DNA of 64,000 bases. Origin: Phanerochaete sordida. Its lineage: Eukaryota > Basidiomycota > Agaricomycetes > Polyporales > Phanerochaetaceae. The stretch spans positions 1-64,000 of the forward strand of contig BPQB01000027.1 in the NCBI GenBank assembly GCA_019973155.2, written 5' to 3'. Shown one piece after another: positions 39,751-58,849 of this stretch (the first letter of the stretch is position 1; every line of letters starts with the position of its first letter). The translations under genes were made by a program, and so were the position numbers. The notes beneath the pieces are model-generated. The model saw only the letters and a program-made list of their open reading frames with translations. It ran no database searches and was not told where the DNA came from.

Positions 39751-41266
39751 ACTAGGGGGAATGTCTCAAGCCGCGGGCGCAAAACCAACTCGTAAGTTTC
39801 CGACATCGAACTCTGATGGTCTCGCGTCAGCTAAAGCCTTGTATTACCAGCACAGAATGTGACCCACCGGTGTAAACATTCCGCATGAAGACGTCGCCAA
39901 GGACCCAGAAACCTGCGAAACATGGTCAGTGCCGTATGCCTTCTCTCAAGACAACACTGCATACCTTCGTCAGCGGCCATGACGCCGCCTACGCAGGCAT
40001 TGCTGCCTTCCTCGAGGAGGCCGAAGTTGAAGGTGTCAGCGGACAGCGTAATCGTCGAGCTGCCTATGCTGAAGGACACAGCGGGGTTCGTGTTGCAGGG
40101 GAAGACGAAGAATCCCGGCCCAAGCACGCTCGACGCATCCTCAGCTCCCTGCACGTTCTCGTAGATGGCGTTCGCGCTCGCGGTGTCGACAATGAGGAGT
40201 GTCGTGCCGGAGTCGACGATCGCGTCCTGCGGGCCCGAGACGACCGTGCGGCGGTTGACGCTCACGCTGTTGACCTCGATCTCCCAGAACGCGGGCGGGT
40301 TCGTGATGCTGACGGGCGTGAAGACGAGGGAGCCCTCGAACGCGTTCGTGTCGCGCCCGCCGACGACGAGCTCGCCGCCGCCGTCTAGGAGCGTGATGCC
40401 GAAGATGGACGACGCCGTCTGGCTCTGGTTGATCAGGCTGATGAATGTCGGCGTACGGTCCACGCTCGAGAGCGACTGGAACGCGAGCCCGAGCAGCCCG
40501 TCGGGCGGGAACTCGCTCTCCGCGAAGCCGCTCGAATAGCGCGTCGCGGCGACGACGGACTGCGCCTTCGCGGTGAGCCCCGCGAGCTGCACCGTGTCCG
40601 TGAAGACCTCGCCCTGCACGGCGGAGCCGTCCGCGAACGTGATCGAGAACGTCTCCTTCTGGTCGACCGCCGTGCTGCTCGCGGCCGTGTTGAACTCGCG
40701 GTGCCCCTGGCAGTTCGCGACGCAGTTCGGGCCCGGCAGGAAGAAGTCGCTCGAGCCCGTGTCGAAGTCGACTGTGGAGGCTGGTCAGCCTACGGCGATG
40801 GCGCGACATGCTTTTGAGACATACCAGTGAACGAGCGCAGAGGCGTGCCGACGGAAACGGCACCCTGCCACAGCACCTCGTCGTCGTCGTCAGTGAGGCC
40901 GATCCTGCCGGCCGATGCGCGCTTGACGGGACTGCGCTCGGTGGGACTACGCTTAGTAGGAGCGGGGCCCGAGCCAATATCGTTGGGGTGCGTCTTGCCC
41001 GTGTTCGCCTTGAAGGCAGCGAAGCCCGCCGCGATCTTACTGAGGCGACCTTCGGGTCAATATTTATCTAGAGACCAAGAAGAGCGAAACACTTACGACT
41101 GTACTTCGGAGACGTGCATCAGCAGAGCGTCCTTGTCGATGACGCCGTTCTCGTCTTGGAAGGCCCGCCTGCGCATCGGTATCTTGGCGAGGGGCTTCGG
41201 GGCCGGCGACGCCGCGACCAAGAGCGGCACGAGCGCGAGAAGGGCGAAGGCGGCCTTGATCTGCAT
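39751..41266 (-). CDS. Secreted aspartic protease A1, polyporopepsin-like, copy 1 (432 aa)
   Basis: Five exons (41097-41266, 40825-41039, 39965-40771, 39868-39912, 39765 region to 39812 extended to stop at 39751) give 432 aa. Signal peptide MQIKAAFALLALVPLLVAAS, then a propeptide with basic KRSP/KRAS motifs, then the mature enzyme. Catalytic aspartates are Asp132 in DFDTGSS and Asp315 in IVDSGTTLLIVD; the second motif is DSG rather than the DTG of its siblings. The C-terminus differs from the other copies: after VGF the frame reads CARGLRHSP, consistent with one extra A in a run of five, so the last residues drifted. It is expected to be secreted and acid-active. Start of a four-copy array. 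Confidence 0.88.
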
Positions 41267-45962: not shown

Positions 45963-47440
45963 TTACTTGAGAATGACAGGCGCAAAGCCAACCCTGAGGT
46001 TACCGAAGTCGAATTCTGTGAACACGCAGTGAGTATGAGAAGCCGGCTACTAGGGAAGCTGGGAGTACGACTCACCTGTATACAGGTTGCGCAAAAACAC
46101 ATCTCCCAGAATCCAGAACCCTGGGTCGAGGTATCAGATAATATACGTGGTCAAGGTTAAAGAAAGGATCACCTTCATCAGCACCCATGATGCCAGCGAC
46201 GCAGTCCCTTGAGCCCTCCTCAAGCTGGCCAAAGTTCAGCGTGTCAGCCGAGAGCGTGAACGCCTTGCCAGCGACGGTAAAGGCAACGTTGGACGGGACT
46301 TCATTGCAGGGGACCGTGAAGAAGCCCTCGCCGATCTCGCGAGCGGCGTTCTTCGAGCCGGGGATGGCCCTGAAGATCTCGGTCGCGCTGTTGGGGTCGA
46401 CAATGAGCAGAGTCGTGCCCGTGTCGACGATAGCGTCCTGGGCACGCGTCACAACGCGCCGGTTGCCTACACTGACGCCGCTTGCCGTGATCTCCCAGAA
46501 CGCCGGCGGGTCCGTGACGATGAGGTCGGCGAAAGCGAGGCTGCCCGTGAAGGCGGTCGTGTCTGTGCCGCCGAGGAAGAGCTCGCCGCCATCGTCGAGC
46601 AGCGTGACGCCGAAGACGGGGTCGGTCGTCTGGCCCTGCGTCACTAGTGTCTGGAACACAGGCGAGCTGCCCGTGTTCGCAATCGACTCGAACGCGAGGC
46701 CAAGCAGGCCGTCTGGCGGGGAGTTCGCAATCGCGAAGCCGTCGGAGTACTGTGTGGCGGCAACAACAGCCTGGTTCGTTGCTGTCAAGCCGGCGAGGTT
46801 CACGGTGTCCTGGAAGATCTCGCCCGCGACGGTCGAACCATCGGCGAACTCGATTTCGAATGTCTCTTGCTGGTCTACAGCCGTGCTACTCTGACCAGTT
46901 TCGAAGACCTTGTGACCTTCGCAATTTTCAGTGCAGTCAGGGCCGGGCAGGAAGAAGTCGCTAGAGCCCGTGTCAAAATCGACTGGAAGAGCGATTCAGC
47001 CATGAATGAAGACTCGAATGCAACACTGGTACTCACCCGTGAATGCGCTGAGAGGCGTGCCAACGGAGACACCGCCCTGCCAGAGGTCACCATCGAGATC
47101 GTCGGTAAGAGGGTCCTTGCCGGTCGCTCGCTTCGCGTGACTGCGCTTGGCGGACGTGTGGCGCACGCCGTTGTCGTTGGGGTGAACCTTGCCTGTGTTC
47201 ACCTTGAACGCTTCGAAGCCGCGCGATAGCTTACTAGAACGGCCGCCGAGAAGCTCATCAGTCATAACGTAGTATGGTCAATGTAGAGACGTACGTTCGC
47301 ACTTCGTCAACATGGGCCTTCAGCGCCGGAATATCGGCGACTCCATTCGCCTTCTGAAACGAGCGCTTCCGCGCGAAGGGCACCTTGGGAATGGGCGACG
47401 CAGGCGCGGGCGTCGCTGTGACGAGGAGGGGCACCAGAGC
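45963..47440 (-). pseudogene. Aspartic protease copy 3, 3' portion, split by a transposon
   Basis: Exons 47037-47233, 46173-46982, 46076-46120 and 45963-46015 are intact and match copy 4 in length exactly (197, 810, 45, 53 nt). The first exon survives only from 47440 to 47295, beginning at the codons for ALVPLL in the signal peptide. The ATG and first ten codons lie 9 kb away at 56462-56491, on the other side of the transposon. Catalytic DFDTGSSDFF and IVDTGTTLLIVD are present, with no stop or frameshift. Joining the pieces across the element would give an uninterrupted frame of 426 residues, so inactivation is due solely to the insertion. No in-frame ATG is supplied by the nearby transposon end. 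Confidence 0.93.
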
Positions 47441-47442
47441 GA
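47441..47442. repeat. Target-site duplication GA, left
   Basis: The dinucleotide GA directly precedes the left terminal repeat and recurs at 56462-56463 after the right one. Two to three bases is the usual length for CACTA-type elements. Confidence 0.8.
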
Positions 47443-47472
47443 CATCAGCAAAAAAAGGCGCCCCATGTATGC
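47443..47472 (+). repeat. Left terminal inverted repeat of the transposon
   Basis: CATCAGCAAAAAAAGG, three unmatched bases, then CCCATGTATGC. It runs into a 13-bp perfect inverted repeat CATGTATGCTCAG (47464-47476 against 47498-47510). Confidence 0.88.
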
Positions 47473-48374
47473 TCAGGTATGCTCAGGTAAGGTCTATCTG
47501 AGCATACATGTGATACCTCTAAGGGTACCAATTCTCTGCTCTTGGACTCTCTTCTTATTACATGTAAGATATATCTTACAGGTGAGTCATAGCTGACATC
47601 CCGTTCCGCTGTGTCATACCTGCGCATGTCTGCTCATGGCAGACCCTCCCAGGGCGTATTATATTCCCAATTTACGCTCAATTTAATCGCACCCATATCA
47701 CGCAATAATGCAGCATAAATCACATTTTTATTTGCGTGCCATATCTACGGGCGGCCAGGGCCGCCACAAGGCACCAGAGTCGAGACAGGAGACACAGACC
47801 AAAGAGTCAGGCAGTCCATGCAGGGCTTGAGAGCGGAGACGACGGTCAGAGAATCAGAGACGGCAAGGGGCGACAGCAAGGACGACCAGAAGATAGACGG
47901 CGGGCATGCGCGTTTAGCAGCAACTGAGCAGCGGTCTTCCTAGCCGAGCGAGAGCCGAGCAAGCGAGTGTGTATGCGAGAGGTCTGCGAGAGGCGTGCAA
48001 GCGAGAGGCGGGGACGTCGGATGTGTGTACGTGCATGCGAGAGATGGACGAGCGAGCGAAAGGTATATGCGAAGTGGGATCTGCACAGCATGAACGTCAG
48101 CATGGAGACTCGGGCATTGAGAGGGAACAAAGGTATGAGTTCGACGCACGGCAAGCTCCTTGCTATGGATCTGTACCCGCCACGGATCAGATATCGCCTA
48201 TGACGGGGCAGGAAATCATACCTAGACCTCGGGCTCGCCGTCGCCCTCCTGCGCGAGCTGACCGAGAAGCAAAGCGCGAGATGAGCCCTCCTGAGGTGCC
48301 TTGGGAAGCAGATCGCAAATGGGGGCAAACGTCGGAGCGTTCGGCCTGTTGAAGATCCATCTGCGAGAAGGCTG
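47473..48374. other. Left subterminal region of the transposon
   Basis: About 900 bp without a gene. It contains TATGCTCAG repeats next to the terminal repeat and a purine-rich stretch (47760-48060) with many GAGCGAG/GCGAGAG words. Confidence 0.5.
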
Positions 48375-49717
48375 TCAGACAAGCCCGTCGTGTATTGTGT
48401 ACACGTACAGCTGGTACCATTGGAGGGTCTCCTTGCACCACTCCCTGTCTTGATTCTTGAAAAGGTCGACGATGTTCTTGAAGAAGGCCTCGTAGCAGAA
48501 TGTTCCCTCTCTGCCAGACCAGGTGTTCTGCGACGACAAGGAGAAGCGTACCTGCAAAGGATGTCAAGCACGGTACGCACGATCATCGACATGCGTACCA
48601 GCACGGCCACATACGCGACCATCTCAGGCGTGAACTTCTGTACCGGGAGCTTCGCACGGTAAACGATGATGAGCGGGGGGCGTTTTCCGCCGTCATACCC
48701 AGGGAGAGGACTCTTTGCCGAGTCCGGGCCGGTGTATATAGCCCTGGCCGCCTAGAGAATATCAGAACAGCTGATTATGCGCCTAGAGAATAGCACTCCA
48801 CTCACCTTGAGCATGACTTGGCTGCGCAGAAGGCCTGCCTCGAGATTGTCGGGGTCGAGGTGTGTCGCATCCCATAGGAACGCAGGGAAGTCATCGGCGG
48901 TGAGGTCCATCCTTCCCTCTTCGTACTTCGCCATGAATCTATATCCCTGGTCAGTAGAACGCCGCCTGCAAGGTTCAGCACGTACGCCGCTTGATCCACG
49001 TCAAATTCCGGGAGCAAGTTCACAGGACAGAGCATGCGAGCGCAATGGACTGACTTTAACCCACGCTGGATCTTCACAGTGTCAGCCAGGATTGGCGGGA
49101 AGCCAGGGACGAAGGAGATCCAGCATAGGACGCGTTCCTTGATGGTGCCGATGTCGTCTGTGCGACCTTGGTTCGAAGCCCCCGTCATCTGAGATAAGAT
49201 CAGATCAAGCTCGTCCGCGAAACAACAGCCTACTTGACTTACCATGTCCAATACCCTGGCGAACGATTCAGGATCCTCGCGGTACTGCGCCATATCACGC
49301 TTGACCCCCGAGATAATGGACAGCAAGGGGTCGTACAACTTGAGGTACTCCTGACGCTCCTTCGGCGTCCTAACAGACCTGCAGTCAGCTGTTGCACGCT
49401 CGCGCGTTCACTGCGTCCACATACAGGTGTGCATAGAGAGCGTCTCCATTATGGCCGTTCTCCTGTGCCGCGCCCAAACCGACCACTGCGTGAACAGGTA
49501 CGAAGGGTCCCAATGCCCGAGGGATCCAACGGCCCTCATGGCGGAGAGCCTCTAGAGGAGTCCGTGTATATTGCGAGGCACTGGGACGCTCTCGTGAAGG
49601 CTCATAAAAGCCAGATAAACGTGCGACGTACCGCCTTTTCTTCGAGCCTTTCGAGGAGTTAAGATCCTCTATGATGCGATCATACGGGCGCTTTGGTGCT
49701 TGTGTGGTGGGCAGCAT
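48375..49717 (-). CDS. DUF6698-like protein carried by the transposon (362 aa)
   Basis: Six exons (49425-49717, 49243-49378, 49000-49188, 48806-48946, 48599-48751, 48375-48551) close in frame to 362 aa. The order of motifs fits the agaricomycete DUF6698 family as I remember it: ALGPFVPVHAVVGLG, then CARMLCPVNLLPEFDGYRF, FPAFLWDATHLDPDNLEAGL, IYTGPDSAKSPLPGYDGGKR and a final SSQNTWSGREGTFCYEAFF. A basic KRRY stretch near residue 30 could be a nuclear signal. The biochemical role of the family is unknown. Its position inside the element, minus strand, 0.9 kb from the left end, makes it cargo or an accessory transposition factor. Confidence 0.7.
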
Positions 49718-50116
49718 GGTTGTTGCTTGTTCTGGTGCAGGTAGGGAGGCGGCGGAAACGATAATGAAGGAACAGGAAGAGGCGAGAGGGAACTCGAAAT
49801 GGCGACGTGTCGAGCTTTATATGCCTGCGCTGAGTGACGTCAGGCGCCCAAAGGCCGCTCCACAGCATCTGCCGGGGTGCCCAGCGGCCGTTGGTCGAAT
49901 ATGTCTGTTTATTCTGCTCACACGCAGCACATGCACAAGTCTCAGGGAATGCTGAGGGCAGCTTCATGTCAATTTCATTGAGAAAAGAACCATGCTTTGT
50001 ACATATGAATTATTAGGCAAAGCGTCGTCGATATTGCAGCAATCGTAGGCGAAGGCTCCGGTAGAACGCGGTAAAAGGGTCGTTTCTGAGAGATGCATTC
50101 CGAAGGCAGAGAGAAT
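49718..50116. other. Spacer inside the transposon
   Basis: About 400 bp between the start of the DUF6698-like gene and the stop of the next minus-strand gene; it should hold the promoter of the former. Nothing else is recognised. Confidence 0.4.
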
Positions 50117-51374
50117 TCAGTCCTTGCGAGTCTTCTTGCGAATAGGGCTGTAGTATTCTGCAGGCAGGATGCGCTTGGGGCGGCCGGTAGTGGGCGGCGT
50201 AGGCAAAGGTTTGGGATGTGATGCAGGAGAGTGTGCTGTAGATGAGACCGCCACTCGAGGCTGAGACGTCGTCAAGAGAGCGTCACCAGGAGGGGTAGTG
50301 TATTCTTCTTTCTTTACTTGGACGGCAGATATGCCAGGTGTACCGCGCGTTCCGGGTGTTTCAGCCAGGGATCGGGAAGTAGGCAGACGTAGCGGAGACC
50401 ACGGCAGCGGAGATGGAGAGACTGAGCCAGATACACCAGGGGAGCTTGTAGCAGCAGTAGCAGCATCAGACCAAGATGGAGGAGTGGAGGGTGCGACGTC
50501 GAGCATGGACCTCGGTTCGCTGTTCTCGCGCAAAGGCTCGGTATCGAGCTTGAGCATTGTGCCCGGCACCAGGTCCACGTCCTCCTGCTTCACTTGCGAG
50601 CTGGCGGAGGGGTCATCTGCGGTTCTATGAAACATTCAGCCTTGGCGGCACTCGTATCCAGCCGCCGGAATCGCACATACCGCGTTGTGTTACAACGTGC
50701 CGGTGTCATACTCACGGGCAAGTCTTTGCCCTCATAGGAGCTAAACAAGATGTGCCAGAGCGGTAAGAGAATGACACAGAGAAGATCAAAAATGAGACGC
50801 ACTATGTACGAAGCGGATCTACCTCGAACGAATCACCCCGTCCGTTCTCCGGTGTGCAGGCTGGCATCGCCCTCCAAGCTTTATGCCATCCCCTCGCCAG
50901 CGCAAAGAGGGTCTCCTGCGCGGTGTCGCTGTGGGCCGGAACCGAGTCGGAGTCGGCAGCTTCGGAAGTCTTGGAGAGCGCGATGGCAACCTCCGCGGCG
51001 CAGAGTGCGACAGACCAAGCGGCGGCTGTCCACGCCTGAGGGCTGCGATATTCAGAGTGTCCAGATTCTGCGGATGACTCCCTGTCCAGTGCAGCAGCGA
51101 TCATTTGCGACTTTGCGAAAGGCTCGACTGCAGAAAGCAAATGAAGCAAGGGCTGGGCTACAGCAGGGTCGCGGAGTTTATCGACCATGGTTCTGGCGGT
51201 CGGGGATTCAAGATGTTCTGCGAGTCGTTGATGAGCACATTTGACGGTGCCCGCTGCTTCTGAGCTGTCTGGCGGTGGGAAGGCAGGTGTCGTAGCCATA
51301 TCGTGCTGGTACTGGTGGTAGTGCAAGCGTGAGTCCTGGACGAGTTCAAGCGCTCGTGCGCGGCGCGCATACAT
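50117..51374 (-). CDS. Transposon-borne protein of unknown function (365 aa)
   Basis: Three exons (50810-51374, 50716-50740, 50117-50624) give 365 aa; the 25-nt middle exon keeps frame only with a GTACAT donor in exon 1. The N-terminal half is helical and Ala-rich (LLHLLSAVEPFAKSQMIAAA, WTAAAWSVALCAAEVAIALS), the C-terminal half disordered, Ser/Pro-rich, with VKQEDVD and VKKEEY, which resemble SUMO-acceptor psi-K-x-E sites. It ends with basic PIRKKTRKD, a plausible nuclear signal. It was checked for TET/JBP dioxygenase, HMG and zinc-finger motifs; none seen. Its start is 101 bp from the divergent transposase start, suggesting shared control. Confidence 0.6.
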
Positions 51375-51475
51375 CTCAGCCCGCGCGCTGAGTTGCCGTT
51401 CACCACCACCAGCATGCAATGGGAGCCCAGCTCAGGCTGCTGCTCTTCTTCTACCTCATTGCTCTTGTTGGAATA
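51375..51475. promoter_or_regulatory. Putative bidirectional promoter of the transposon
   Basis: Only 101 bp separate the predicted ATG codons of the unknown protein (minus strand) and the transposase (plus strand). If the starts are right, the two are controlled from one short region. A later in-frame start at 51300 for the minus gene would widen it to 175 bp. Confidence 0.45.
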
Positions 51476-54400
51476 ATGGGACCCCTGATCTGTATCGGCT
51501 GCAACTCGAAACCATTCCGGGCGGAGATAGGCCTGCGAAGGCATCAGCTATCCTGCGACGACTTCATCGCGACTCTAGGACAGAATATAACACCAGCAGT
51601 GCCTACTATTGCTGCTCCACCCGCCCAGATTCTACACAGGGACGATGAGTCCCCTGAGGAAGAGAGGCAGCATCTTCGAGACACTCTGAACGAGGTACGA
51701 GATCGCTCGGATAGTCTGGTTCAATCTTACAAGGAATATATGCAGCCATTCGAACTTCCGCATGCTTCGACATCCCATGTTGAGCTTCCACCCAGCCGGA
51801 TCTCTGGTCGAAAACGACGGGCTCCTCCAGCATTAAAGGACTACGTACCTTCGTCCACAGCCGGCCGTCTGAGCGAACACGTTTCGCAGTTCGTTCCGCC
51901 GCCACCTCCTGGACCGCCGCCACAGCCCCTCGTAGAAGATACCCTGGAGGAGCTCCCCAACCCTGCTGATCCTGCTGCCTCACCGCCAGAACCTCGCGTC
52001 ACATTCGAGACTGAGCCGAACGGCTTTGGCGTCTTCCGAAGGTACTACAAGCAACCGGAACGCGACCCAGAGCTCCAGTTGAGCTCAGATGGGCTGTGCA
52101 ACTCCCCAACAATCACCTCCCCACCCTCGAACCCTGCAGTCGGCAATAACGGACCTGCACACGGCTTCGGGCGCGCTGCTGTAGCCGCTGTAACAGATGC
52201 GGCTCACCGGTGGTTTGCGCCCTTCCTGAACGCCTCTGTATTCCGTCTACTCCACTGGTGCTACAGCGGCTCTAACATAAAGTCTGCCGCTGAGCTGAAT
52301 CGCCTTGTCAACGACGTCCTCCTGGCCGACGACTTCTGCTTGGACGACCTTCGTGGCGGATTCAGCGTGCAACGAGAAGAGGAGCGGCTCGACGCCTTAG
52401 ACCAGCCTAAGAAACCAGCCAATTCTTCGCATGGCACATCACCAGCAGCGCCGTCTCTAACTGATGGCTGGCGTGAAGGCAAGGTCAAGCTGCGAGTCCC
52501 CAAGGAGAAGTTCAAGCACGCATGCGAAGCCGCAGCCCCTGAGATGGAGGTTGACGGCCTGTACTATAGGCCGCTACTGGAAGTTATCCGCGCAGCGTAT
52601 GAGGACCCATCAGCCGCCGAATTCGAATTCACGCCGTACGAGCTGCACCATCGCGACGAAGACGACGAAACAGATCGTACTGCAGGCTCATCTACAGCCA
52701 CAGAACGTCTATATACCGAGGCATACACCGCAGATGCCATCCTCGAGGAAAACGCGCGCATACAGTCACTTCCACGTGTCGAAGGCGATGACGATGACAT
52801 TCCCTACACCGTCGCGCCGCTAATGTTCTGGTCGGATTCCACACATCTCGCGAACTTTGGCACCGCCTCGTTATGGCCAATCTACCTTTTCTTTGGAAGC
52901 CTATCGAAGTATGTTCGCTGCAAGCCCACTAGCTTCGCGGCTCATCATCTGGCATACGTACCAAAGGTAAGCATAGTATCTGGTATTTTTCGAAGCTTAT
53001 CAAGACTCTAACCCACTCAACAGCTGCCGGATACCGTTCAGGACTTCTACCAGAGTGTTTATGGGTGTCTCGCCTCGGCCAACGTCATCAAATTCCTCAA
53101 GAGCGAGGTCATGCACGCCGTTTGGCTTCTGCTTCTCGACGCGGACTTCATGAACGCATATGAGCACGGCGTCATTATCATGTGCGGCGATGGTCTTCGG
53201 CGACGCATATTCCCTCGGATCTTCACCTATTCAGCTGATTATCCCGAACGGTGAGCCATTTGCGCTGTACGTTCGCGCTCGACTGCTAACTCATATGGTT
53301 GGTTAATCAGTGTCCTGCTCTCCTGTATTCGATATCTAGCAGGGGCTCCATGTCCTGCTTGTCTCACCCAGAAAGCGCATATCGTTTCTCTCGGCACGAA
53401 GGCTGACACGCAACGGCGATCGAAGCTCCGTATGGATACATCTTGGTTGTGGGACAAAATCGAGATGTGTCGGAGCTGGATCTTTGAACGCGGTTATGGT
53501 GTGGGTAGCAAGATGGTCGACAATGTCCTTGGGGCATTATCGCTTCTCCCTACTCGTGTAAGCCTTTTGTTGCGATTTTGAGCACGCTGGTACTCATCAG
53601 CCAGAGCAGAGCGCGTTCAGCATACGCTTGTCACCGTTTGGCTTCAACCATTATTCGATGTTCGCCCCCGACGTCTTGCACGAGTACGAAATCGGCACAT
53701 GGAAGCACGTGTTCATTCACCTCCTTCGTGTGATCTATGAAGTCGCGGCGAACGACCTCGGCGAATTTAATGCACGGTACGCATCCTGCATCGGTTTGCG
53801 TGATATCGAAACTGAACCATAACACAATATAGCTTTCGCGCTGTGCCAACGTTTGGTAGATCTACGATCCGACGATTTCATTCGAACGTCTCGGCTATGA
53901 AGAAGCTTGCAGCGCGTGATTTTGAGGACATTCTTCAGGTATGTCTCCGATGGCCTTTACACGAAACCTCGAGCTCATTGGGCGTGATATGCAGTGCATC
54001 ATTCCGTGCATCGAAGGAATACTCCCGCCATCTCTCGAAGTCGTTGTTCTTGATATGCTCTGGGAGCTCGCACTTTGGCACGGACTTGCTAAACTGCGTC
54101 TGCACACAGACAAGACACTTCAAATCTTCGAAGCGACAACAACCAGACTCGGAACAGCAGTGCGGCGTTTTGCCAGGGCATGCGCCTCGATCGCGACGAA
54201 GGAACTACCAAAAGAGGTCTCCGCGCGAGCGCGAAGGAACGCGAGGAAAAGCAAGGGCAAGGAACCGTCTGTCGCAGCTGAGCGCAAGCGAAAGTACCTC
54301 AACCTGAAGACGTTCAAGTGGCATGCCATCGGACATCTTCCGAGCTTCATTCGGCGACATGGAACGAGTGAAGGCTACTCTACGCAGGTCGTACGTACAT

Positions 54401-56126
54401 CCACGTCACGGCCTCGGTTGAATCCTAACGATTTCTGCGTGCGTTCTCAGGGCGAACTCGAACACCGCCGGGTGAAGGCGTTCTATGCACGCACGAACAA
54501 GATCAGATTTGCGAAGCAGATAGCTAGCCGCACTCGTCGCCAACGTTTACTGGAGAGCATCAGCTTGAAGGGCATTGAACACGCCAAGCAAGAGAAGGCC
54601 GCCGCAATTCAAGAGGCTCTGGCTCGTCGCAGGGCCTCTCCAGCTAGCCGTACACCTTCGCCTGGACGTCATGCCAGTCCACCTCGGACGCCAAAGAAGA
54701 GGGGAAGACCGCGCAAGTCCTCCGCTATCAGTCTTGGCCCAACCGACAAGGATCCGCTTCCTACCACGTCGTACACGGCTCACCATCACATCTCCGACTC
54801 GCGCGAGCATTGGACGGATCTGCATCAGTGGCTGAGCGAGAATCGTGAGGATCCTGCACTCGTGGTGAGTTCTCTTGTCACACTGAGGGAACTGGTCAGC
54901 GGCCGTTACTGACTGATATCATCAGTCATTCATGCCTCTTCTCAAGGACCATCTCATCTCTCGGCTTATTGGCCGAGAGTACGAGGGCGACGAGACTGCA
55001 TACACCGCAGAGGAACGGAGTAAACTATATATCCGTGGGGATCGCCTCTATCGACACAAGGTCATGCGCATCAACTACACGACGTACGACATGCGCCGTG
55101 ATCAGGACTCCATCAACCCTCGCACACATCCTGATATCATGGTCATCTCTCAAGAGGACGAGGGCGACGGCCAACGCTCCAAGGCTCGCCACCCTTACTG
55201 GTACGCTCGCGTCATCGGAATCTTCCACGCCGACGTCAAGTACATGGGGCCGGGCTCTCAGAGCCGAGACTGGGAACGCCTCGAGTTCCTCTGGATACGC
55301 TGGTTTGGGCTGGACTTCACCGCTCCTGGTGGGTTCCGCAAGCGTCGGCTACACCGCGTAGGATTCGTCGATGCCGATGACGGCGGCGCTTTCGGATTCC
55401 TCGATCCAAAGGTCGTTCTTCGCGCTGCGCACCTCATTCCGGCTTTTGCACACGGGCGTCGTGACGATCTGCTCGGTCCGTCCCTCGCCAGGCAAGACGA
55501 CGAAGACGATGAAGATTATGTCTACTACTACGTCAATATGTGAGCGGACCAGGTCACCTAGGGCAGTGCTGCGAATGCTCTACTTACCATGTGGTCGCGA
55601 TAGGTTTGTCGACCGAGATATGCTCATGCGCTACCTCGGGGGTGGGATCGGACACAAGGCCACGCGGAAGCTCGTACCTATTGATGACGCGTTCGAGGCG
55701 ATCACGGGCTCTGCCATCGGCGAGCAGGCTACAGAGGTCGAAGAATCTGATGATACCCCCACAGATCAACTCGAGCAAGACATGGAGGTCGTTGCCCCCG
55801 CTCCGGTGGCAGATAACGCAAGCTCCGGACCAATAGACGAGGACGACGATGGCGGCGAACGCGACAACGACAACGACGAGGAAGAGGAAGACTGTGAAGA
55901 GGAAGACGAGGACGAGGATGATGAGCGAGTGTTGGAAGAAATACACCAGCTCGAGGGCGAAGACGATCAAGAACCGGCAGAAGACGCGATGCAGACCGAC
56001 GACGCTGTGCTCCGGCGGTCGACGAGAGCGCGCAGGCGGCCGTCCCGTACCGTTGAATCTTGGCTTGGTCCCGAGGATGGAGAGGATGGCGTACGCGTTG
56101 ACGACGAGTTTGAATGGTCAATCTGA
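51476..56126 (+). CDS. Plavaka transposase (1,394 aa)
   Basis: Nine exons (51476-52966, 53024-53250, 53311-53557, 53610-53776, 53833-53938, 53995-54390, 54451-54864, 54926-55539, 55604-56126) join in frame to 1,394 aa. It starts with a compact zinc-finger-like MGPLICIGCNSKPFRAEIGL followed by RRHQLSC (CxxC...HxxxxC). The core shows family landmarks: PLMFWSDSTHLANFGTASLW, VYGCLASANVIKF, GDGLRRRIFPRIFTYSADYP, CPACLTQK, SPFGFNHYSMFAPDVLHEYE, GELEHRRVKAFYART. Near the C-terminus WERLEFLWIRWFGLD and an acidic tail follow. It should cut and rejoin DNA at the element ends. No stop or frameshift was found, so it may be active. Confidence 0.88.
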
Positions 56127-56431
56127 GCCTTTGCATACGGACTGTACATAGATTGCAACCAAATGCGAGATTGTATGAACTAGCATACCTAGTACTTGTT
56201 CGTGCGCACGGTCGCGCGGAATGGCGGGCAGCGGCGAGCGCCCACAACGGGTTGGTAAACGAGCGACATGGTATGACTATCTCTGACAGCCACGCAAATA
56301 CCTGGACGTGCATGTGCATATCTGACGGACAAGGTAATCTATGCTCTGAGCAGGTATTAGCTGTGAGGCATGCCCTTGGCTGAGCATACCGGATATTCCC
56401 TGCCAGCTATCCTCCTGCATGTCTCCCCGGC
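56127..56431. other. Right subterminal region of the transposon
   Basis: About 300 bp with no gene. CTGAGCATA at 56380-56388 and related ATGCTCTGAGCA at 56341-56352 mirror the subterminal words of the left end. Confidence 0.55.
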
Positions 56432-56461
56432 GCATACATGGGTTTCCTTTTTTTGCTGATG
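56432..56461 (-). repeat. Right terminal inverted repeat of the transposon
   Basis: Reverse-complemented it reads CATCAGCAAAAAAAGG, then AAA, then CCCATGTATGC, matching the left end except for the three central bases. Confidence 0.88.
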
Positions 56462-56463
56462 GA
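56462..56463. repeat. Target-site duplication GA, right
   Basis: Second copy of the GA that flanks the left end at 47441-47442. Confidence 0.8.
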
Positions 56464-56491
56464 GGAGCGCGGCGCAAAGCTTGATCTGCAT
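56464..56491 (-). pseudogene. Aspartic protease copy 3, 5' fragment (ATG and signal-peptide start)
   Basis: Ten codons starting at ATG 56491 read MQIKLCAALL (the tenth completed by the duplicated GA), equal to the first ten residues of copies 2 and 4 apart from two changes, and then stop matching exactly at the transposon end. The remaining exons are at 45963-47440. The promoter stayed with this piece and would now transcribe into the right end of the transposon. Confidence 0.92.
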
Positions 56492-57350: not shown

Positions 57351-58849
57351 TTACTTCAGAACCACAGGAGCGAAGCCCACTCGCTCGTTACCGAAGTCGA
57401 ATTCTGTGCACAAGACGCATGAGCATAAACACTATGAAGATTCGCAAAGCATGTTTACCAGTGTAGGTGTTCCGGATGAACACATCACCCAAGATCCAGA
57501 AGCCTGCAACGCGCATAAGTATCGATAGCTTGCGAGCACACGGAGTACCTACCCTCGTTAGCACCCATGATGCCGCTGACACAGGAGTTAGAACCCTCCG
57601 AGACTGGACCAAAGTTCAGGGTGTCGGCGGAAAGGGTGAACGTCTTTCCGGCAATGGTGAACCCAACGTTGCTGGGGATCTCGTTACAGGGGATCGTGAA
57701 GAAGCCCTGGCCGACGGTACGCGCGGCACTTGCGGCGCCGGGGATCTTGTTGTGGATCGCGGTGGCGCTGGTCGGGTCGACGATAAGGAGCGTAGTGCCG
57801 GTGTCGACGATCGCGTCCTGTGCACGTGTGACGACCTTGGTCGCTCCGACGGACGCACTGGAGACCGAAATCTCCCAGAACGCCGGCGGGTTCGTGACGA
57901 TGAGCGGCGTGAACGTGAGGCTACCGGTAAAGGCAGTGGTGTCCGTGCCGCCGAGGAAGAGCTCACCACCGTCATCGAGGAGCGTGAAGCCGAACACGGA
58001 CGAGGACGTCTTGCCCTGCGAGACGAGCGTGGGGAACACCGGCGAGTCGCCCGTGTTCGCGATGGACTGGAAGGCCATTCCAAGCAGACCATCCGGCGGC
58101 GAGTTCGCAATCGCGAAGCCTTCGGAGTACTGCGTCGCGGCGACCACAGCCTGTCCAGTAGCAACGAGGCCCCCGAGGCTGACCGTGTCCTTGAAAATCT
58201 CGCCAGCGACGGTCGAACCGTCGCCAAACTCGATCGAGAAGGTCTTGTGCTGGTCGACGGCGGTGCTGCTGGACCCGGTCTGGAAGACCTTGTGGCCTTG
58301 GCAATTTGTAGTGCATTTGGGGCCAGGCAGGAAGAAGTCGCTCGAGCCAGTGTCAAAGTCAACTGTCGGAGCATGTGAGCCTTGACGCGCCACATAAAAG
58401 ACTTGGGCGAGACATACCAGTGAAAGCACTCAAAGGCGTGCCGACGGAGACACCACCTTGCCAGAGATCGCCGTCAAGGTCGTCGGTGAGCGTGACCTTG
58501 CCCGTCGCGCGCTTGACGGGGCTGCGCTTGACGGGAGCAGGGCGAACACCGTTGTCATTCGGGTGGACCTTGCCCGTATTCGCCTTGAAGTTGTCAAAGC
58601 CACGGCCAATCTTGCTGTAGTGACCAGTCAGCCGCGTGCACGAATGGTGCGCACCGGGCGAATTACTCACGTCTGCACCTCCAGGACGTGCGCCTTGAGT
58701 GCCTCGATATCGGCAACGCCGTTCTCCTTCGTGAAGGAGCGGCGCGCGACTGGCACCTTCGCCACAGGTGGTGCCGGCGAGGGGGCAGGCGACGCTGCCG
58801 CTAGCAGTGGCACGAGCGCGAGGAGAGCGACGGAAAGCTTGATCTGCAT
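57351..58849 (-). CDS. Secreted aspartic protease A1, polyporopepsin-like, copy 4 (427 aa)
   Basis: Five exons (58671-58849, 58418-58614, 57553-58362, 57459-57503, 57351-57403) give 427 aa. Signal peptide MQIKLSVALLALVPLLAAAS; propeptide with VARRSF and KRSPVKRATG. Mature enzyme starts around residue 80-110. Catalytic Asp129 (DFDTGSSDFFLPG) and Asp312 (IVDTGTTLLIVD). The substrate-flap region and YSEGFAIANSPPDGLLGMAF are typical of basidiomycete A1 proteases. It ends EFDFGNERVGFAPVVLK. Closest by eye to copy 3, with identical exon lengths downstream of exon 1. Expected to be extracellular and active at acidic pH. Confidence 0.92.

Follow-up and report, generated by a model that had tools for sequence, protein, structure and literature searches.

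Aspartic protease gene of Phanerochaete sordida split by a PlavakaB-type transposon whose transposase looks intact

The genus Phanerochaete reportedly offers an earlier case of a transposon in the gene of a secreted enzyme: Pce1, which sits in one allele of a lignin peroxidase gene of Phanerochaete chrysosporium, is said to be smaller than the element described here and to have had its inheritance studied. No paper among the matches listed had the word Pce1. The insertion of a transposon into a gene is an ordinary kind of event, and at the locus presented below it is correctly observed. What might attract specialists is a well-preserved single-copy element and the DUF6698 gene that it carries.

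The closest described group is PlavakaB of the Agaricomycotina, defined in the main text of Kojima (2025, PMC12730594) by CATCA..TGATG termini and a target-site duplication (TSD) of 2 or 3 bp, together with a Plavaka transposase domain and the residues D, D and E, the second D and the E flanking C(2)C and H(3-4)H. The same text relates the catalytic motif pattern of Plavaka to EnSpm/CACTA and describes a TET/JBP domain in some PlavakaB elements. Our element shares with the group its termini, a 2-bp TSD, the Plavaka domain, and C(2)C and H(3)H motifs; it differs in that no TET/JBP domain appeared in the ten stretches scanned, and in having a DUF6698 gene, whose name never occurs in that main text (PMC12730594). 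Neither the CAC..GTG termini nor the 3-bp TSD of EnSpm/CACTA is found in it.

The DNA analysed, hereafter the window, is a stretch of 64,000 bases (bases 1-64000 of a 415833-base contig) from an assembly of Phanerochaete sordida of 40.84 Mb in 222 contigs. The published assembly of strain YK-624, a wood-decay fungus, was built with SPAdes from Illumina 301-base pairs and comprises 341 contigs and 41.2 Mb (PMC8530024); we infer that the assembly searched here is of that strain, though its extent differs from the published one. P. sordida is a lignin degrader in which transformants have already been made (PMC8530024). In the open-access literature, outside which most subscription journals lie, a search combining P. 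sordida with "transposable element" returned no paper titled on P. sordida.

Four aspartic protease genes stand in tandem in the window, and the element sits in the third:

39769..41266, minus strand: protease copy 1 (P0133), from homologues, its end given without the stop codon
43291..44796, minus strand: intact protease copy 2 (P0123), from an exon model and homologues
45963..47440, minus strand: protease copy 3, remainder of exon 1 plus exons 2-5, from the joined model
47441..47442, no strand: TSD GA, left copy, from the flank letters
47443..56461, no strand: PlavakaB-type DNA transposon, 9019 bp, from its terminal inverted repeats, TSD and Plavaka transposase
47443..47477, plus strand: left terminal inverted repeat, CATCAGC..., from arm comparison
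56427..56461, minus strand: right terminal inverted repeat, ...GCTGATG, from arm comparison
56462..56463, no strand: TSD GA, right copy, from the flank letters
56462..56491, minus strand: protease copy 3, codons 1-10 (beginning of the signal peptide), from frame reading
57351..58849, minus strand: intact protease copy 4 (P0121), from an exon model and homologues

Copies 4, 2 and 1 match public acid proteases of P. sordida and are present among the best 120 of 270 protease homologues, from which copy 3 is missing. The first exon of copy 3 comes in two parts, 30 nt (56491-56462) and 146 nt (47440-47295), which add up to 176 nt; in copies 2 and 4 this exon has 179 nt. Once the flanks are joined with one GA, copy 3 becomes a stop-free gene of five exons and four GT-AG introns that codes for 426 aa (427 aa in copy 4, 425 aa in copy 2). 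The preliminary description of this DNA had the protease break after ten codons at 56462, within the signal peptide, and resume at 47440, with an exon 1 one codon shorter than in copies 2 and 4 and with a frame restored, free of stops downstream, by deletion of the element plus one GA; the location of both pieces, the exon lengths and the joined model all bear this out.

The same description put the terminal inverted repeats at 30 bp. The repeats are present, and their arms measure 35 nt at 86% complementarity, the outermost 16 nt being identical. The GA duplication held to bound the element is found both before 47443 and after 56461. Just inside the left end, the motif TATGCTCAGR occurs in three exact copies (47468..47506), and near the right end in two copies with one mismatch (56340-56388); with up to one mismatch, the whole window contains 13 matches against 6.8 expected. 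Repeats inside the ends are a point in which the element resembles EnSpm/CACTA transposons.

Within these ends lie the following genes:

48222..49717, minus strand: DUF6698 gene, 7 exons, 399 aa, from a profile match and a spliced model
50117..51299, minus strand: open stretches of 165 and 172 aa that may belong to a third gene or to several, from open reading frames
51419..56126, plus strand: transposase gene, 9 exons and eight GT-AG introns, 1416 aa, from a spliced model, with PF18759 in the first two exons

The PF18759 matches in exons 1 and 2 of the transposase gene have E-values of 9.6e-13 and 5e-06, and both are over the cut-off, exon 2 barely so (26.4 against 26.3 bits). The spliced model has no internal stop; an earlier version with the intron 6 donor GTCGTA (1415 aa) was replaced by one with the donor GTACGT (1416 aa). 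The motifs SDST, SADYPE, CPAC, HAIGH and GELEHRRVK are present, and we assign them provisionally, from the sequence, to D, D, C(2)C, H(3)H and E, respectively. SDST is kept in all 14 aligned relatives; at the later motifs many of them are incomplete or fail to align. Both H of HAIGH are kept in two of the three relatives readable there, the third (P0085) having HALGD. The alternative HVFIH was dropped as H(3)H, as its first H is missing in the relatives readable at that point. A protein search with exon 1 gave 291 matches, and the best named among the 120 listed are Hermanssonia centrifuga proteins, at 42-52%. In the assembly, a 1201-base stretch of the transposase gene matches only itself.

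The element thus has CATCA..TGATG termini, a 2-bp TSD in its GA and a Plavaka domain through PF18759, and a D, D, E pattern with C(2)C and H(3)H between the second D and the E is found by motif and alignment, many relatives being partial there and the residue assignment being our own. By its ends, TSD and transposase, as far as sequence can tell, it is confirmed as a complete PlavakaB-type transposon, and it looks autonomous. The name Plavaka, given to it before any profile search, fits both the PF18759 match and the published PlavakaB ends and TSD (PMC12730594), and the transposase then called intact would be so at 1416 aa, with no internal stops and with its motifs present.

Could the arrangement be a product of the assembly? 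Because this is a short-read SPAdes assembly, the joins between element and protease have not been seen within single long molecules, and with 301-base Illumina pairs the assembler might have used a repeat to connect pieces that do not belong together; nine other loci resemble the left 206-290 nt of the element at 77-88%. Such an artefact is scarcely credible, however, since in the assembly neither the transposase stretch nor the upstream flank has a match besides itself, and the downstream flank is matched elsewhere only by the other three copies of the protease, at 68-75%, and by a piece of 60 bases, at 84%. The similarity of the ends is probably well below the level that would confuse reads this long, and neither an exact 2-bp TSD nor base-exact restoration of a frame is expected from a misjoin. 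A 32-base empty-site pattern has no match in the assembly with up to three mismatches, so that the filled site stands there alone, with no second allele; a collapsed assembly would hide another one, so that polymorphism between strains or nuclei, offered as a possibility in the preliminary description, may exist.

How old, then, is the insertion? In the tree, copy 3 groups with P. carnosa P0124 (support 95/98), to which it is 86% identical. This protein, the nearest orthologue found, is full length and unbroken; therefore, with the protein record taken at face value, the insertion postdates the split between P. sordida and P. carnosa. The same broken arrangement was not seen in that one orthologue. 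Copy 3 has a slightly longer branch than P. carnosa (0.11 against 0.077), a difference that is not significant by relative-rate counts against six outgroups (14-22 for copy 3, 11-17 for P. carnosa, p 0.2-1.0). The joined gene contains no stop, frameshift or lost GT-AG pair, and it is changed at none of 74 columns conserved among 40 homologues (the first to pass a length filter), a count of limited power, as five of the seven comparison rows also have 0 and the others 2 and 4. Intron 3 (46172-46121) has a weak donor, GTGATC, in place of GTAGGT in copy 4 and GTAAGC in copy 2; it may be a first sign of decay or an old variant.

Assuming neutrality since insertion, immutable conserved columns and indel rates of 0-0.2 per substitution, the 95% bound on neutral divergence since the insertion is 0.7-1.5% with conserved columns counted, 1.1-2.4% when the GTGATC donor is added as one lesion, and 1.2-7% from disabling lesions only, none of which translates into years. 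Dating by comparison between copies was ruled out, because the transposase stretch has no second match and the nearest kin are too diverged. An old insertion would require that the fungus could already do without the protease, or that the gene died long ago, and that the gene has stayed clean by luck. The weak donor and the longer branch would suit this idea, and by stops alone about 12% divergence leaves none in 5% of cases; yet the lesion-free joined gene with its unchanged conserved columns, the low bounds under the assumed rates, and transposase and DUF6698 models without internal stops make it improbable. The insertion looks evolutionarily recent, and the broken gene appears to be without clear decay, in agreement with the youth first attributed to it: the joined frame is clean, conserved residues are kept and the P. 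carnosa orthologue is unbroken.

We consider it very probable that a PlavakaB element with an intact-looking transposase moved by cut-and-paste into copy 3 after codon 10, duplicating GA, after the separation from P. carnosa. In this reading the insertion cuts the mature enzyme off from its promoter, its start codon and a large part of its signal peptide, and copy 3 would lose its expression. We infer an active transposase, a cut-and-paste move and the loss of expression; the stop-free transposase and DUF6698 models, the joined frame, the structure of the element and the unbroken orthologue protein are observed.

Is there a way for the split gene to be expressed nonetheless? The element might be spliced out, or a promoter within it might drive the protease: the DUF6698 gene points at the 3' protease piece, and donor-like GTATGC sequences exist in the element ends. 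A 9-kb intron would be far beyond the modelled introns, which measure 43-64 bp, and no in-frame ATG precedes intron 1 in the downstream piece, so continued expression seems very improbable. The upstream piece can code for no more than a 44-aa peptide that stops inside the element. Because of this short product and of the missing downstream ATG, copy 3 is predicted to be null, with its tandem neighbours retained.

The preliminary description had proposed a search for other copies with the same ends, and this turned up loci with related ends, none of them a further copy of the element. Its first 20 nt have eight exact occurrences in the genome, its own included, and 17 with up to three mismatches (both window ends included), against one for the reversed control. 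From the genome, 13 stretches with end matches were fetched. Six of them, 1493-1933 bp long, carry a left as well as a right end of the family; of the other seven, five are one-ended and two have both ends of another end family (L025 and L028). The nearest kin, 1600 bp on C51, resembles the element at 88% over its left end and at 79% over its right end. Two of the six, non-autonomous elements of 1.6 kb on C16 and C40 (L016 801-2423, L018 7698-9304) are 98.5% alike, and therefore this sister group moved fairly recently; no coding copy of it was identified.

A 2-bp match between flanks was found in eight of ten end pairs, where 1/16 is expected (P about 9e-9); this and the end counts above speak against chance. 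The pairs are those of the window, of L029 and of eight of the 13 stretches, the one-ended L017, L021, L024, L026 and L027 being left out. In the two misses, L018 has no match and L028 (3888-5812) has a 4-bp TGGC instead. The left end of L029, CATCGG, was chosen among several loose matches partly because it fitted the flank; without L029 the count is 7/9, and when the other end family is also removed, 6/7.

As for the second gene of the element, the DUF6698 model (399 aa) is stop-free and divergent to the transposase gene, and it shares 95% identity with the public form of the protein, PsYK624_086760, which has 379 aa. The predicted structure, made from three sequences, was useless (mean pLDDT 36). 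The neighbouring open stretches at 50117..51299 have no Pfam match. Over the genome, the DUF6698 profile gives 11 matches at five loci, two of which, in the window and on C60, are less than 5 kb from a Plavaka match (P about 5e-4, taking 27 Plavaka loci hand-counted from profile matches). The least expected result is that this second element on C60 (L029, 1873-9680) carries transposase and DUF6698 (L029 2794-3450) in the same divergent order; its DUF6698 reading contains stop codons in the six-frame match, which may be introns. The C58 locus (L021) has DUF6698 and the left end of the family, with no transposase match in its 9.9 kb. On C16 the Plavaka match is 19 kb off, and on C194 none is listed; the stretches around these two DUF6698 genes show no family end and have no transposase match stronger than E 0.15. 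By this survey of five loci, the link between DUF6698 and Plavaka rests on two elements and one partial locus against two unsupportive loci, and DUF6698 may be a companion gene of PlavakaB. The name DUF6698 led to no paper in the open-access literature, with the same scope as above.

TNPA of CACTA elements provides a comparison for a helper protein that binds transposon ends. One may imagine a working autonomous PlavakaB, present in one copy, that continues to mobilise itself along with its short relatives, with DUF6698 as a conserved second protein, perhaps an end-binding helper, and with an insertion polymorphic between nuclei or strains; taken jointly, these suppositions are rather doubtful. 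The element is a candidate active member of a group known from reconstructed families, to judge from the main text that describes them (PMC12730594). Its single site would give a clean filled/empty assay in a lignin-degrading fungus, and it offers a lead on a role for DUF6698. A minor observation concerns the end-bearing C58 locus, beside which L021 3579-4640 appears to resemble a secreted glutamic protease.
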